A DNA stretch of 64,000 bases from Limnohabitans sp. Rim8 (lineage in GTDB: Bacteria; Pseudomonadota; Gammaproteobacteria; Burkholderiales; Burkholderiaceae_C). Below, piece after piece: positions 15,712 to 21,549 of the stretch. Position 1 is the first letter of the stretch, and the number at the start of each line of letters is the position of its first letter. Location of the stretch: the NCBI GenBank assembly GCA_945897465.1, contig CAMDFK010000002.1, forward strand, positions 1 to 64,000, read 5' to 3'. The notes beneath the pieces are model-generated. The model did no database searches. It was not told the origin of the DNA and saw only the letters and a list, made by a program, of their open reading frames with translations. A program made the position numbers and the translations under genes.

Positions 15712-15782
15712 TCATTGGCCCCTCCTGTCAAGGAGGGGCGAGTCACTTCAACAGCGAGTTATTGCTGTTGAAAACATCCAAC

Positions 15783-15813
15783 AAAAAAGCCTGCACAATG
15801 TGCAGGCTTTTTT
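15783..15813. terminator. Bidirectional intrinsic terminator between the binding protein and tRNA-Ser
   Basis: A perfect 14-base-pair inverted repeat (AAAAAAGCCTGCAC with GTGCAGGCTTTTTT) around a three-base loop. It has A-runs and T-runs on both sides, so it can stop transcription from either direction: the binding-protein gene on the plus strand and tRNA-Ser on the minus strand. A second, shorter GC-rich hairpin (CCCCTCC/GGAGGGG near 15719-15737) lies just before it. Confidence 0.85.
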
Positions 15814-15817
15814 CATC

Positions 15818-15908
15818 TGGCGGAGCAGGCGGGATTCGAACCCGCGGTGGGCTATTAACCCACACACGCTTTCCAGGCGTGCGACTTAAACCACTCATCC
15901 ACCGCTCC
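15818..15908 (-). tRNA. tRNA-Ser(GGA)
   Basis: Read on the minus strand the 91-base gene begins GGAGCGG and ends CTGCTCC-G-CCA, giving a seven-pair acceptor stem, a discriminator G and an encoded CCA. The anticodon loop CTGGAAA carries GGA, which reads UCC and UCU serine codons. The long variable arm (GTGGG...CCCAC) is typical of class II serine tRNAs, and the T-arm GCGGGTTCGAATCCCGC is perfect. It is transcribed away from the decarboxylase gene. Confidence 0.97.
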
Positions 15909-15918
15909 AGAGGAGGTG

Positions 15919-15924
15919 ATTGTA
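15919..15924 (-). promoter_or_regulatory. Candidate -10 box for tRNA-Ser
   Basis: On the minus strand TACAAT lies 11 bases upstream of the mature tRNA 5' end, the right distance for a short-leader tRNA transcript. No good -35 hexamer is found at 16-18 bases; TTGAGA is present but 24 bases away. The call rests on the -10 match and position only. Confidence 0.35.
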
Positions 15925-16103
15925 GCAGTGGAGTAACGTGTTTTCCCCTCTCAAGCGCAATTCTTATCAGAGGACGCACGCTCAACTCGTCTGATCTTTC
16001 TGAATTTCTGGTTTGTGTCACTCAGACTGGACTTTTTGTCCTTAAACTTTGTGCTTGTTTGAAAACCCTTTTGACCTTTACTTGGCGCACAGCCCATCAG
16101 CCT

Positions 16104-18377
16104 ATGAAATTCCGTTTTCCCATCGTCATCATTGACGAAGACTATCGCTCCGAAAATACTTCTGGCTTGGGTATTCGCGCATTGGCGGAGGCCATCGTTG
16201 CAGAGGGTTTTGAGGTCCTGGGGGTGACCAGTTACGGTGATCTTTCTCAGTTTGCCCAGCAGCAAAGCCGTGCCAGTGCTTTCATTTTGTCGATTGACGA
16301 CGAGGAATTTTCTCCAGGGCCTGATCTGGACCCTGCGGTGATCAACTTGCGTGCCTTCATTGACGAAGTGCGCCGCAAAAACGCCGATGTGCCGATTTAC
16401 ATCTATGGCGAGACCAAAACCTCTCGTCATTTGCCTAACGACATCCTGCGCGAGTTGCACGGCTTCATCCACATGTTTGAAGACACGCCCGAGTTTGTGG
16501 CGCGTCACATCATCCGCGAGGCCAAGAGTTATCTGGAGGGCGTGCAGCCGCCGTTTTTCAAGGCACTGCTCGATTACGCTGAAGACGGCTCTTATTCTTG
16601 GCATTGCCCCGGCCACTCCGGTGGCGTGGCTTTTTTGAAGAGCCCTGTGGGCCAGATGTACCACCAGTTTTACGGTGAGAACATGCTGCGTGCCGATGTG
16701 TGCAACGCGGTGGAAGAGCTGGGCCAGTTGCTAGACCACAACGGCGCCATTGGCGAGAGCGAACGCAACGCCGCCCGCATATTCAACGCCGACCACTGCT
16801 TCTTTGTCACCAACGGCACCAGCACCTCCAACAAAATCGTTTGGCACCATACTGTGGCCCCAGGTGACGTGGTGGTGGTGGACCGCAACTGCCACAAGTC
16901 GATCTTGCACGCGATCATCATGACCGGCGCAGTGCCCGTGTTCATGAAGCCCACACGCAACCACTTTGGCATCATCGGCCCTATTCCCAAAAGTGAGTTC
17001 GAGCCAGCCGCCATCATGGCCAAGATCAAGGCCAACCCTTTGCTCAAAGGCGTGGACCCCAAAAAGGTCAAGCCCCGTGTGATGACCTTGACCCAGTCCA
17101 CTTACGACGGTGTGCTGTACAACACCGAAACCATCAAGGGCATGCTCGACGGTTACGTGGACAACCTGCACTTTGACGAGGCTTGGTTGCCTCATGCGGC
17201 TTTCCACCCGTTCTATGGCCCTTACCACGCCATGGGCAAAAAGCGGGCTCGCCCCAAAGAGTCCATGGTCTATGCCACGCAATCGATTCACAAGCTTTTG
17301 GCTGGTATCAGCCAAGCCAGCCATGTTTTGGTGCAAGACGCGCAAAGCGTCAAACTCGACAGGCCACTGTTCAACGAGGCCTACCTGATGCACACCTCGA
17401 CCAGCCCGCAGTACAGCATCATTGCCAGCTGCGACGTGGCCGCCGCCATGATGGAGCCGCCCAGCGGCACCGCTTTGGTCGAAGAAAGCATTGCCGAAGC
17501 CCTGGACTTCCGCCGCGCCATGCGCAAGGTGGATGAGGATTACGGCAAGGACTGGTGGTTCAAGGTCTGGGGGCCAGAGAAGTTTGCAGACGAAGGCATT
17601 GGCCGCGCCGACGATTGGATTTTGCGCAATGACCCGCGCAAAAAGGCCAGCAAGTGGCACGGATTCGGTCAGCAACTGGCCGATGGCTTCAACATGCTCG
17701 ACCCCATCAAGTCGACCATCGTGACGCCAGGCTTGAACCTGGACGGCAAGTTCGACAAGACCGGCATTCCTGCCTCCATCGTCAGCAAATTTCTGACGGA
17801 GCATGGGGTGGTGGTGGAGAAGACTGGCCTTTACAGCTTCTTCATCATGTTCACCATAGGCATCACCAAGGGCCGATGGAACAGTTTGCTCACGGCCTTG
17901 CAGCAGTTCAAGGATGAGTACGCCAAGAACCAACCGATGTGGAAAATCATGCCGGAGTTCTGCCAGAAATTCCCGCGCTACGAGCGCATGGGTTTGCGTG
18001 ATCTGTGCCAGCACGTGCACGAGATGTACGCCAAATACGACATCGCACGCCTGACCACCGACATGTATTTGTCGGACTTGGCCCCAGCCATGCGCCCCTC
18101 TGATGCGTATGCCCACATTGCGCACCGCAAGACCGAGCGGGTAGAAATTGACCATTTGGAAGGCCGCATCACTGTGGGTTTGGTCACACCCTATCCACCG
18201 GGCATTCCGCTGTTGATTCCAGGCGAGGTCTTCAACAGAAAGATTGTTGATTACCTCAAGTTCGCGCGTGAGTTCAACGAGAAGTGCCCGGGCTTCGAAA
18301 CCGACATCCATGGTCTGGTCGAGATCAAAGACGATGTCGGCAAGAAGCGTTACTTTGCGGATTGCGTGAAAGTTTGA
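16104..18377 (+). CDS. Orn/Lys/Arg decarboxylase, class I (biodegradative type)
   Basis: A 757-residue fold-type I PLP decarboxylase that would make a polyamine or diamine from a basic amino acid. Residues 1-130 form the response-regulator-like N-terminal wing (FPIVIIDEDYRSENT); the core has CPGHSGGVAF, DRNCHKSIL and the PLP lysine in ATQSIHKLLAGISQASH. The C-terminal domain follows with PYPPGIPLLIPGE. The length is closest to AdiA (about 755) but substrate cannot be separated from lysine or ornithine forms by eye. The start at 16104 begins the conserved wing; the frame upstream runs through the tRNA region and is not coding. A terminator and two long hairpins follow. Confidence 0.92.
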   Translation: MKFRFPIVIIDEDYRSENTSGLGIRALAEAIVAEGFEVLGVTSYGDLSQFAQQQSRASAFILSIDDEEFSPGPDLDPAVINLRAFIDEVRRKNADVPIYIYGETKTSRHLPNDILRELHGFIHMFEDTPEFVARHIIREAKSYLEGVQPPFFKALLDYAEDGSYSWHCPGHSGGVAFLKSPVGQMYHQFYGENMLRADVCNAVEELGQLLDHNGAIGESERNAARIFNADHCFFVTNGTSTSNKIVWHHTVAPGDVVVVDRNCHKSILHAIIMTGAVPVFMKPTRNHFGIIGPIPKSEFEPAAIMAKIKANPLLKGVDPKKVKPRVMTLTQSTYDGVLYNTETIKGMLDGYVDNLHFDEAWLPHAAFHPFYGPYHAMGKKRARPKESMVYATQSIHKLLAGISQASHVLVQDAQSVKLDRPLFNEAYLMHTSTSPQYSIIASCDVAAAMMEPPSGTALVEESIAEALDFRRAMRKVDEDYGKDWWFKVWGPEKFADEGIGRADDWILRNDPRKKASKWHGFGQQLADGFNMLDPIKSTIVTPGLNLDGKFDKTGIPASIVSKFLTEHGVVVEKTGLYSFFIMFTIGITKGRWNSLLTALQQFKDEYAKNQPMWKIMPEFCQKFPRYERMGLRDLCQHVHEMYAKYDIARLTTDMYLSDLAPAMRPSDAYAHIAHRKTERVEIDHLEGRITVGLVTPYPPGIPLLIPGEVFNRKIVDYLKFAREFNEKCPGFETDIHGLVEIKDDVGKKRYFADCVKV

Positions 18378-18422
18378 TATGTAACGGGGGTGTTGCCTTG
18401 AAATTTCGGTTTCAAGGGGAGG

Positions 18423-18506
18423 GCAGGTGAGTTGGGGCCCTGCGCGGGGGCTCAGAGGCGCTTCGCTTTGCCACATCGCCCCCGCACAGGGCCCCGACTC
18501 ACCTGC
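18423..18506 (-). repeat. Long hairpin element, copy A (inverted relative to copy B)
   Basis: Two 29-base arms (18423-18451 and 18478-18506) pair with only two wobble-type differences around a 26-base loop. On the minus strand the inner part reads GGCGATGTGGC, then AGCGAAGCG, then TGAGCC. Copy B at 18676-18758 has almost the same inner part but differently sequenced arms that still pair. It lies just after the decarboxylase stop and before a separate terminator, so it is not simply that gene's terminator. Confidence 0.75.
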
Positions 18507-18512
18507 GGGGGA

Positions 18513-18550
18513 GAATTGAAAAAAGCGGCTTTCGCCGCTTTTTTCAATTC
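18513..18550. terminator. Bidirectional intrinsic terminator
   Basis: A perfect 17-base-pair stem (GAATTGAAAAAAGCGGC with GCCGCTTTTTTCAATTC) around a TTTC loop. The GC-rich core flanked by A and T runs works on both strands. It most likely ends the decarboxylase transcript and may also stop read-through from fabI. Confidence 0.85.
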
Positions 18551-18675
18551 CAAAATCTCTTTCTGGTGTCATTTTTTGTAGGCAAGACGCCAACCGTGCA
18601 TGATTGAATCAGTCTGCGCTCGCGATCATTTCCGCCACGTTCATTTGGTCAATTACCACACGAACTTCAATTCAG

Positions 18676-18758
18676 CCTGAGGTGAGGTGGGCGCTGAACC
18701 GGGCGATTTGGCGAGCGAAGCGAGTTATGAGCCCGGGCAGCGCCCGCCTCACCTCAGG
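18676..18758 (+). repeat. Long hairpin element, copy B
   Basis: Arms of 21 bases (18676-18696 and 18738-18758) pair with a single wobble difference; CCGGGC at 18699-18704 pairs further with GCCCGG at 18731-18736. The inner part reads GGCGATTTGGC, then AGCGAAGCG, then TGAGCC, matching copy A on the other strand. The rest of the gene-free interval 18378-18815 (between the elements, about 18551-18675) shows no gene. A weaker CTGAAGC/GCTTCAG hairpin at 18774-18799 may end fabI transcription. Confidence 0.75.
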
Positions 18759-18815
18759 CGGTCTTTGCAAAAGCTGAAGCCCATCTTCGCAAGCTTCAGA
18801 AGCATGGACACCGCA

Positions 18816-19631
18816 TCAAGCCGCAGCCGCTGGCTCCGCAATGCCACCGACCACCTGGCTGAAACCGCCATCGACATAGATGATCTCGGCCGTCACGCCC
18901 GCGGCCAAATCGCTCAACATGAACGCCGCGACATTGCCCACATCCTCAATGGTCACGTTGCGGCGAATGGGCGAAGCCTCGGCCACCACCGACAAAATCT
19001 TGCCGAAACCCTTGATGCCACTGGCCGCCAGCGTCTTGATGGGACCGGCCGAAATGCCGTTGGCCCGCAAGCCACGGTTCTGACTGCCCAGCGACTCGGC
19101 CAGGTAACGCACCGATGCCTCCAGGCTGGCTTTGGCCAGACCCATGGTGTTGTAGTTGGGCACGGTACGGATTGCGCCCAGGTAAGTCAGGGTCAGCACT
19201 GCCGACTTGTCGTTCAGGTAAGGCAGGGCCGCTTTGACCATGGCGGGGAAGCTGTAGGCGCTGATGTCGTGGGCGATCTTGAAACCTTCACGCGACAAAC
19301 CGTCCAGAAAATCGCCAGCAATCGCTTCGCGAGGCGCGTAGCCAATCGCGTGGACAAAACCGTCGAACTTGGGCCAAGTGGCTGAAAGGTCGGTGAAGAG
19401 CTTCTCAATCTGTTCGTCGCTGCCCACGTCGCAATCAAAAATCAATTTGGAATCGAAATCGGCCGCGAATTCGGTGATGCGGTCCTTGAAACGCTCGCCC
19501 ACGTAGCTGAAAGCCAGCTCGGCGCCTTGGGCGTGGCAAGCCTTGGCAATGCCGTAAGCGATCGAGCGGTTCGACAACACACCGGTGATCAGCAGCTTTT
19601 TGCCCGACAGAAATCCTGTTTTTGTGGTCAT
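18816..19631 (-). CDS. fabI: Enoyl-[acyl-carrier-protein] reductase (NADH)
   Basis: Catalyses the last reduction of each fatty-acid elongation cycle. The 271-residue SDR-type protein has the FabI N-terminus [20 protein letters not shown], and the catalytic tyrosine and lysine spaced as Y-x6-K in [10 protein letters not shown], then [14 protein letters not shown]. The start at 19631 matches the family N-terminus; the frame continues upstream without support. It is divergent from yejA across 37 bases. The C-terminus ends in alanines, a common variation. Confidence 0.96.
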
Positions 19632-19668
19632 GTCTTCAACTCCTGGAAAATGTGGGCAGAATTGTCGC

Positions 19669-21549
19669 ATGCGAACCCCCATGGCCCGCTTATGGACACA
19701 CTGCTGCTTGGCCCTCGGGCTTGCGGTGGCTGGCAACGCCTGGGCCGCACACGCTTACGCACAATTTGGGGACATTCGATACCCGGTCGGCTTTACCCAC
19801 TTTGCTTATGTGAACCCTGCCGCACCCAAAGGCGGCGAGATCAGTCTGGTGCCGCCTACACGGCAGTCCAACTTCGACAAATACAACCCCTTCACCTTGA
19901 AGGGCAGCGCACCGCCTTCTATGCTGGGCATGATGTTCGACACCTTGTTGGTGGGCAACATGGACGAGCCGACCACGGCCTATGGCTTACTGGCTTCGGA
20001 TGTGGCGGTGGCCAGCGACCGCTTGTCGGTCACCTTCCAGATCCACCCGCAAGCCCGTTTTCACAACGGTGACCCGGTGCTGGCGGCCGATGTTCGCCAC
20101 TCTTTTGAGCGCTTGACCAGCAAGCAAGCCGCGCCCCAGTACCGCACGTATTTCGGCGAGGTCAAAGGCGCAACCGTGTTGGCTGAGCGCAGCATCCGCT
20201 TTGATTTTGTGCGGCCCAACAGCGAACTACCCCTGATCGTGGGCAGCTTGCCCGTGTTCAGCCAAAAGTGGGGGCTGGAAGGCGGCGCCCATCAACCGCT
20301 GGACCAAATGGTGATGGACATCCCGATCGCGTCCGGCCCCTACCGCATTGGCCGTGTGCAGTTTGGCAAAGACATCACCTATGAGCGCGACCCGGCCTAT
20401 TGGGCCCGGGACCTGAATGTCCGCAAAGGTCAATTCAATTTCGACCGCGTCACTTACAAAATCTACAAAGACCCCACGGCCCAGCTCGAAGCCTTCAAGG
20501 CAGGCGAGTTCGATTACATGCAGTCTTTCATCGCACGGGAGTGGGCCCGGGCCTTCACTGGCCGAGCCTTTGAGCGCGGTGATTTGATCAAGTCCGAGTT
20601 GCCGCATGGCAACGCGGGCGACCTTCAAGGTTTTTTGTTCAACACACGCCGAGACAAATTTCAGGATGTACGGGTGCGCCAAGCCATTGCGCTGGCCATG
20701 GATTTTGAGTGGCTGAACCGCCAACTTTTTTACAACGCCTACAGCCGAGTGCGTGGCTATTTTGTGGCCAGCGATTTCGAAGCCAAAGGAAAACCCGGTC
20801 CCGACGAGTTGGCCTTGCTCACCCCTTTGCGGGCCAAGCTGCCTGCCGCTGTGTTCGAGCAGGATGTGCCACAACCGCCCCAAACTGCGCTCGACCCCGC
20901 ATCGGGCCGCACCTTGCGTGACCATTTGCGCCAAGCGCGTGATTTGCTCCAAGCCGCAGGATGGACCTACAAAGAGGGTGCTTTGCGTAATGCCAAGGGA
21001 CAAGCCTTCACCATTGAGTTTCTGGACAGTTCGGGCTCTATGGGGCGTGTGGTCACACCCTTTGCCAAAAACCTCGAAAAACTGGGCATGCAGGTGCGGT
21101 ACAAGGTGATCGACTTTGCGCTGCTGCAAAAACGCATGGACGTGTTCGACTTTGACATCATCAGCAACCGCACCGTGGGCAGCGAAGCGCCGGGCACCGA
21201 GTTGCTCGAGCGTTATGGCAGCCGATCGGCCGATGTAGAGGGCTCGGGCAACGTGATTGGCCTCAAAGACCCGGCAGTGGACACGCTGCTGGACAAGGTG
21301 GTGAGCGCCACATCAAGGCCAGAGTTGGTGACCAGCCTGCGAGCGCTCGACCGGGTGCTGCGCCACGGCCATTACGTGGTGCCCCACTGGTATGGCGCGG
21401 TGCACCGGGTGTCCTGGCGTGCCAAAGCGTTTGCGCGGCCCGCCGACTTGCCCCGTTTTTACCAGCCTGAGAGACTGGTCACCACCGTGTGGTGGTCGCC
21501 TGATGCGCCAGGCTCAACAGCGGCTCCAACCGCCCCAAAGGCCCCCTGA
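19669..21549 (+). CDS. yejA: Oligopeptide/microcin C ABC transporter substrate-binding protein
   Basis: A 626-residue SBP_bac_5 family periplasmic protein, with signal peptide at about 1-26 (MRTPMARLW start, ending AWAAHA). The order and content ([19 protein letters not shown] near the N-terminus, then [12 protein letters not shown], then a long opp-type domain) fit YejA, which binds peptides for the YejBEF permease and is used by microcin C in E. coli. The ATG at 19669 is chosen because it begins the signal peptide. It begins a four-gene operon, with yejB starting three bases after its stop. Confidence 0.9.

Follow-up and report, generated by a model that had tools for sequence, protein, structure and literature searches.

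Two inverted hairpins between convergent genes

In the window (the whole 64,000 nt stretch of Limnohabitans sp. Rim8 DNA analysed here), a gene for an Orn/Lys/Arg decarboxylase and a convergent gene for a FabI-like enoyl-ACP reductase are separated by a gap with two long hairpins in opposite orientation, copies A and B, both located downstream of the stop codons (Table 1). The FabI-like gene probably has its true start near 19632, and a tRNA gene (15821-15908, minus strand) overlaps the over-long open frame upstream of the decarboxylase. Both hairpins fold where the preliminary description had placed them, copy A at -72.8 kcal/mol (z -10.3) and copy B at -71.6 kcal/mol (z -10.2), with none of 200 shuffles equally good in either case. 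They share the conserved inner sequence described earlier (GGCGATGTGGCAAAGCGAAGCGCCTCTGAGCC in copy A, GGCGATTTGGCGAGCGAAGCGAGTTATGAGCC in copy B), while their outer arms are indeed unlike each other, yet paired in both. The gap had been reported as gene-free with a separate terminator; no open frame of at least 80 aa is wholly contained between the copies, and the terminator-like hairpin there was judged by eye, with a similar one in most of the homologous gaps inspected.

Table 1. Features of the decarboxylase-fabI gap in the window, and palindromes beside the Y1_Tnp genes of the same genome.
Feature	Position	Strand	Basis or remark
Left neighbour, Orn/Lys/Arg decarboxylase	15762-18377	plus	true start uncertain; stops 46 nt short of copy A
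Copy A, whole hairpin	18423-18506	minus	fold; R1 covariance-model match 18415-18514, 89.3 bits
Copy A, 5' arm	18478-18506	minus	
Copy A, 3' arm	18423-18451	minus	
Copy A, head, type 1, GATGTGGCAAAGCGAAGCGCCTCTGA	18452-18477	minus	identical 26 nt in 54/66 type-1 copies
Bidirectional terminator-like hairpin	18513-18550	none	between copies A and B, outside the element; by eye
Copy B, whole hairpin	18676-18758	plus	fold; R1 match 18668-18766, 77.8 bits
Copy B, 5' arm	18676-18704	plus	
Copy B, 3' arm	18731-18758	plus	
Copy B, head, type 2, GATTTGGCGAGCGAAGCGAGTTATGA	18705-18730	plus	
Right neighbour, enoyl-ACP reductase, FabI-like	18816-19736 (open frame)	minus	convergent with the decarboxylase
TTAATTGGGGTC/GATCCCAATTAA-type palindromes bracketing a Y1_Tnp gene, locus L021	1412-1438, 2201-2225		
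TTAATTGGGGTC/GATCCCAATTAA-type palindromes bracketing a Y1_Tnp gene, locus L022	1106-1130, 1890-1920		

Copy A is missing entirely or by half in several relatives, which can thus do without it. A single-arm allele of copy A (L172, L175, L181) was considered as a pre-insertion state and dropped; by eye it reads as a deletion between short TGCGGGGG repeats, as one relative (L190) retains only the opposite arm and others retain both. In genome G021 (L180) the same gap has G runs, Ns and C runs in place of copy A, probably because the assembly failed at the hairpin. Genome G048 (L179) carries one more long inverted repeat between copies A and B, different in kind (GTAGGTCGG...CCGACCTAC).

Anatomy of the hairpin

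The unit is a nearly constant head (GAT...GCGNAGC...TGA) carried on a stem of about 29 bp, the head being laid out as GAT, an inner hairpin mostly with a GC-GNA-GC loop, and then TGA. Anatomy was scored by script on fetched loci, where 283 head matches had at least 17 of 25 pairs and 221 were left after removal of identical contexts; head matches less than 40 nt from a locus end were left out. The inner loop was GCGAAGC in 204 of these 221 copies (GCGCAGC, n = 7; GCGTAGC, n = 1; GCGGAGC, n = 1; others, n = 8), a count that includes 115 loci collected with a pattern containing GCGAAGC. The DNA sequence d(GCGAAGC) forms an unusually stable mini-hairpin. Folded as DNA, the heads did not outperform shuffled sequences on the plus or the minus strand.

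Part of the head conservation follows from the way copies were collected, many loci having been picked through the head itself or with a model in which the head counts. Among 66 type-1 heads from loci gathered without exact-head selection (though many via covariance model R1, which scores the head), 54 were identical, 10 had one base change and two had two, or 0.8% change per nt. Copies from different sites differ by 1.7% in the head and share 45% identity in the arms; for the 5' arm the overall identity of 0.45 is made up of 64% over the inner 7 nt and 39% over the outer 20 nt, against 35% for one-arm shuffles. The heads of copies in valS are more relaxed.

The unlike stems end at the same length. 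In 33 non-redundant arms, ungapped pairing was 0.64 to 1.00 over positions 1 to 27, then fell to 0.61 and 0.45 at positions 28 and 29 and to 0.18 at 30 and 31, and stayed at 0.12-0.21 through position 34 (RNAfold stem extents above 31 nt include flanking pairs and were left out).

A dispersed family within one bacterial family

A DNA search of the Rim8 genome gave 22 matches, in many cases with the head at their centre, and reading of the loci identified 20 copies plus one in locus L019, with heads of two types. Folding energies lie between -61 and -76 kcal/mol for 19 of the 20 copies and at -41 for the remaining one. Further copies in the same genome and its relatives had been set beforehand as a test of the element, and both were present: covariance model R1 gave 24 matches in the Rim8 genome (E <= 0.001, one of 34 bits being doubtful), dispersed and with many inverted pairs. 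The searches of the genus, the family and a class-wide sample used stricter filters, by which weak matches are lost. They returned matches in 43 of 60 genomes of the freshwater genus Limnohabitans (Rim8 included, E <= 0.01), with up to 28 copies, in 40 of 299 genomes of the family (Rim8 included, E <= 1e-4), spread over 23 of 141 genera with its own genus included, and in two of 274 genomes across the class (E <= 1e-5), namely Rim8 and one genome of the same family. Within the genomes sampled, the hairpins were found only in one family of Burkholderiales. In other genera the heads vary, e.g. GATTTGGCGAGCGCAGCGAGTATGA and GATTTCAAAAAGCGAAGCGTATGA.

The exact head pattern occurred in at least 115 stretches of a named sequence collection. 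Titles among the matches listed (n = 80) were Limnohabitans, Comamonadaceae, Burkholderiaceae and Burkholderiales, with three of Akkermansia. The records titled Akkermansia muciniphila (CALQKH02; L057, L082, L087) belong to a metagenome-assembled genome with hairpins typical of Limnohabitans, which is probably a mislabelled bin. Viral contigs searched with two exact head patterns gave no match, and a search of plasmids gave nothing beyond chance (10 records, all with E of 1 or worse), which argues against a phage or plasmid element.

No named family had been recognised when the pair was first described, and this stands. Across the whole window only a tRNA reaches the Rfam gathering score, the sub-threshold Rfam matches on the hairpins being mostly microRNA precursor models, and no description of a constant-head hairpin family was recognised among the papers listed from the open-licence literature. 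The hairpins are apparently an undescribed relative of the known bacterial palindromic repeats.

Close neighbours are mostly inverted. Among 20 pairs less than 400 nt apart in four genomes, 16 were oriented (-,+), three (+,-) and one (+,+); 39 of 75 copies belong to close-neighbour groups.

Arms change while pairing is kept

Selection on structure had been proposed from copies A and B, although two copies are unable to prove compensation. It is the 21 Rim8 copies that show it: when aligned, each of the 30 long-stem pairs has at least one two-sided change, pairing holds in 75.9% of cells compared with 52.9% in shuffled alignments, and covariation scores 0.586, where shuffling gives 0.189 and sliding the partner no more than 0.336, the stem structure scored here being drawn from those same sequences. 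In 26 model-fitted copies, three of them from Limnohabitans, 93.6% of cells are paired (53.5% shuffled).

The Rim8 genome and three relatives have 75 matches, most of which occupy orthologous places whose flanks share about 77-97% identity, and these places display the range of arm evolution. Arms may be almost identical (L019/L254), altered with compensation (window/L246/L260), or dissimilar but still paired (L012 vs L233; L232 vs L250), and the 26-nt head is unchanged across the orthologous places compared. At one locus (L229), half of an old copy precedes a complete copy with other arms.

Within-site comparisons covered the 174 of 221 copies paired at 22 or more of 27 positions, in copy pairs that are not independent of one another. 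At an arm identity of 95-100% there were four two-sided compensated positions, 79 one-sided wobble changes and 77 pair-breaking changes, and at 60-65% identity these were 1277, 416 and 333, respectively. Compensation thus increases with divergence, and many arm changes still break pairs. Arms failing to pair in other copies had been named in advance as grounds for dropping the element; in the copies compared, pairing persists as the arms change. Grouping arms by single linkage at 0.68 chained 115 of 221 copies into one cluster owing to G+C bias, hence the family counts obtained in this way were discarded.

Mismatches favour one strand

A transition in a paired arm produces a G.T mismatch on one strand and an A.C mismatch on the other. 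Arm mismatches take the wobble form mainly when read on the GAT...TGA strand, where 162 distinct mismatches were G.T, 45 A.C and 120 others (binomial p 1e-16; 177 of 221 copies passing a symmetric filter). Taking 129 copies by the head alone, without a pairing model, gave 132 G.T and 44 A.C (p 2e-11). G.T exceeded A.C in all 14 sites with events (sign test p 1.2e-4), with the asymmetry near nil at sites 0 and 7 (10 vs 9 in each).

The asymmetry is carried in part by inner positions 5-8, and 108 of 262 G.T cells fall at positions 5-7. With positions 5-8 omitted, the counts were 104 G.T and 41 A.C (p 2e-7), with ten sites for, one against and one tie. Counting each site, position and pair once gave 126 and 43, or 91 and 40 without positions 5-8. 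At stem positions 26-27 there was no asymmetry (G.T 7, A.C 9). A structure serving on both strands, or mutation blind to the head, should give equality, hence the G.T excess suggests that one strand matters. Both this asymmetry and the pairing kept in changing arms support the selection on structure that was originally proposed.

Placement, probable gain of copies and in-frame copies

By gene context, as assigned with a home-made gene caller, the 75 copies lie between tandem (n = 38), convergent (n = 24) or divergent genes (n = 12), with one unknown and a few in-gene copies included, and this spread over intergenic types resembles that of intergenic DNA itself.

An earlier suggestion that the hairpin might be a mobile palindromic unit is supported, for present or former mobility, by three observations that also fit past gain of copies. 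The first is a filled and an empty allele in the gap between coaBC and pyrG, which has one copy in five genomes (Rim8 included) and an uninterrupted junction in three (G033, G035, G007); the flanks lie about 2 kb apart in G044 and G046 and were not found in G040. Filled alleles have 184-244 extra nt, of which the hairpin makes up about 95, so that the insert is larger than the hairpin. A target-site duplication, a mark of MITEs of DDE transposons, is by eye not visible above 2 nt, at flanks that have diverged. Secondly, sites 8 and 13 carry similar arms (L127 vs L084), matching at 27 of 30 positions in the 5' arm and 24 of 30 in the 3' arm.

Thirdly, a minority of copies are in frame within genes of three kinds. 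At one point in valS, the valyl-tRNA synthetase gene, the sequence resembles FSTMGWPEKTQDYDLYLP in most relatives that lack a long insert, and others have 44-122-residue versions of that 36-residue piece. Here translation of the head gives GDLASEASMS or a similar peptide in Rim8, G007, G013, G028 and G033, and also in seven other genera (G085, G086, G101, G107, G109, G175, G267, G274, G224), giving in-frame copies in eight genera in total. These come from a ValS query that matched 113 of 120 genomes, of which 20 with suspected inserts were fetched, two of them unparsed; the other inserts at this point include short ones, unrelated ones and ones without the head. Copies are likewise spanned by open frames for MmeI-like restriction-modification proteins (L221, L222 in both orientations, L223) and for a SpoU-type methylase (L226).

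The valS of another genus (L312, genome G172) has a different, foldable in-frame repeat at the same point (VRPEPFEG...STGSARTD), and a related-looking VRPELVEG stands beside the constant-head hairpin in L226. A third kind of insert, with the peptide SLPPEGA, occurs in the valS of G107, G146 and G061 (L300, L304, L311). This valyl-tRNA synthetase loop seems to be a hotspot for in-frame repeats.

Interpretation

We read these hairpins as a new, dispersed family of palindromic elements resembling REPs and RPEs, with selection acting on one strand in its folded form (probability roughly 0.65). The GAT...TGA strand, folded as a single strand of DNA or RNA, would be under selection, and a putative factor would read the head and need the long stem, with stem sequence largely free provided that pairing holds. 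Template switching in replication, as reported in published work (PMC8794818, PMC8604942), may supply the paired changes and could flip the head. We found no protein or transcript using the element.

The folded strand may instead be RNA, the plus strand being transcribed as a small RNA or untranslated region in which the head binds a protein and the stem is an RNA duplex. This we regard as possible, with the odds against it. Wobble tolerance is typical of RNA, and RNA folding of the type-2 head is better for the plus strand (z -2.85) than for the minus (z -1.08). The type-1 head, however, shows no strand difference (z -1.42 and -1.37), and G.T makes up 5.5% of arm cells (262/4779). Orientation relative to the neighbouring genes is mixed (same/opposite 23, opposite/opposite 18, same/same 17, opposite/same 12; 70 of 75 copies usable), and neither neighbouring gene reads the functional strand in 18 of 70 copies. 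At the pyrG site the hairpin stands upstream of a TATAAT that the empty allele also has. The flanks of 33 copies contain no conserved promoter and no promoter-like conservation upstream, which argues against an independent small-RNA gene with its own promoter. The lack of a conserved promoter and the mixed gene orientation thus give no support to an RNA role, and the results do not point to single-stranded DNA either.

Old, dead palindromes could in principle be kept perfect by mutation alone, template switching copying one arm onto the other with no function involved. Besides the compensated changes, this would account for site 5, where the head points one way in six copies and the other way in 15 (21 of 22 placeable), with arm types of the opposite orientations agreeing at 18 of 27 positions, as spacer inversion by template switching has been reported (PMC8604942). 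It would also suit the composition of the 5' arm (G 0.513 vs C 0.237; T 0.154 vs A 0.095), a bias of G over C and T over A that is attributed in PMC8794818 to intrastrand switching. A purely mutational origin is nevertheless unlikely, as it leaves unexplained both the near-unchanged head at orthologous and different sites and the excess of G.T over A.C.

Mobilisation as REP/REPIN elements by resident RAYT (Y1) transposases, which nick the folded strand at the hairpin, would match the palindromic, dispersed and mostly intergenic copies, the inversion of 19 of 20 close neighbours and the favouring of one strand, and the Rim8 genome does have two Y1_Tnp genes. Both of these RAYT-like genes are, however, flanked by a different palindrome (Table 1), and no constant-head hairpin occurs in their fetched loci. 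Y1_Tnp is also present in 58 of the 60 genus genomes, and of the 17 genomes that lack hairpins 16 have it. Stems of about 29 bp contrast with the 5-13 bp given for GTAG REPs in PMC3733652. This distribution and the different flanking palindrome argue against RAYT mobilisation as a simple answer, which we consider quite improbable. Ordinary bidirectional terminators or mRNA-stabilising hairpins at gene ends, as the position of copies A and B after stop codons might indicate, are the least credible reading and largely refuted as a terminator or 3' UTR role, since copies also occur between divergent genes (12/75) and inside genes, TTTT follows within 18 nt of the stem in none of 33 copies, and a terminator does not need a constant head.

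Returning to a dispersed family selected on one folded strand, we tentatively suggest, as a more specific possibility that may well be wrong, that the hairpins form a network serving the cell, in which a putative dedicated factor reads the GNA-looped head and measures the stem of about 29 bp on one strand, each site having a private stem that is kept paired by selection together with template switching. What makes the family unusual is a conserved tip on dozens of dissimilar stems, equal in length, that stay paired across the genus, even within genes such as valS. It thus offers a natural experiment on the shares of selection and template switching in stem maintenance, and the G.T/A.C asymmetry is a simple test for the functional strand that is applicable to other repeats. 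A head-binding factor, if one exists, would be a new reader of single-strand hairpins.

Comparison with known systems

In integron attC sites, structure is conserved while sequence varies, and one folded strand is recognised, the ends being constant and the middle free. The constant-head hairpins are similar in keeping structure under sequence change and in favouring one strand, but with the arrangement reversed, the middle being constant and the arms free.

Like REP, BIME and REPIN sequences (PMC3733652, PMC3116915), the hairpins are palindromic, with inverted dimers common, and many of those families also comprise 20-100 units. Inverted dimers are the one REP/RAYT mark that they share. REP stems are given as 5-13 bp for GTAG and 8-9 bp for CGTC types (PMC3733652), whereas here the stem is about 29 bp, its sequence is not conserved, and no RAYT gene flanked by the repeat was found in the Rim8 genome. 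At the stem base of 33 non-redundant copies, GTAG/CTAC occurred in two and CGTC/GACG in three.

BRE, the beta-proteobacterial repeat element, reported from Bordetella and Comamonadaceae as a well conserved, tandem element of about 90 bp (Hot et al. 2011, PMC3110155), is similar in length, copy number (up to 29, counted at > 70% identity), Comamonadaceae hosts and placement, which is intergenic and sometimes within coding sequences. Our hairpins differ in that their arms vary (5' arm 0.45, outer 20 nt 0.39) and their pairs are inverted, a separation made on the published description of BRE.

RPEs, the Rickettsia palindromic elements, are dispersed palindromes of about 150 bp, some of them in frame in unrelated genes (PMC10969869), and the constant-head hairpins resemble them in size, in dispersal and in having some copies in frame in protein-coding genes. 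RPEs are, however, described by family and by conserved peptide (PMC10969869), and here it is mainly the head that is conserved, with free arms, most copies intergenic and the hosts in a different bacterial class. The family is thus like REP and RPE in dispersal and placement, fails most of the REP marks tested and conserves mainly its head, whereas the palindromic repeats compared here are described by conserved stem sequences.
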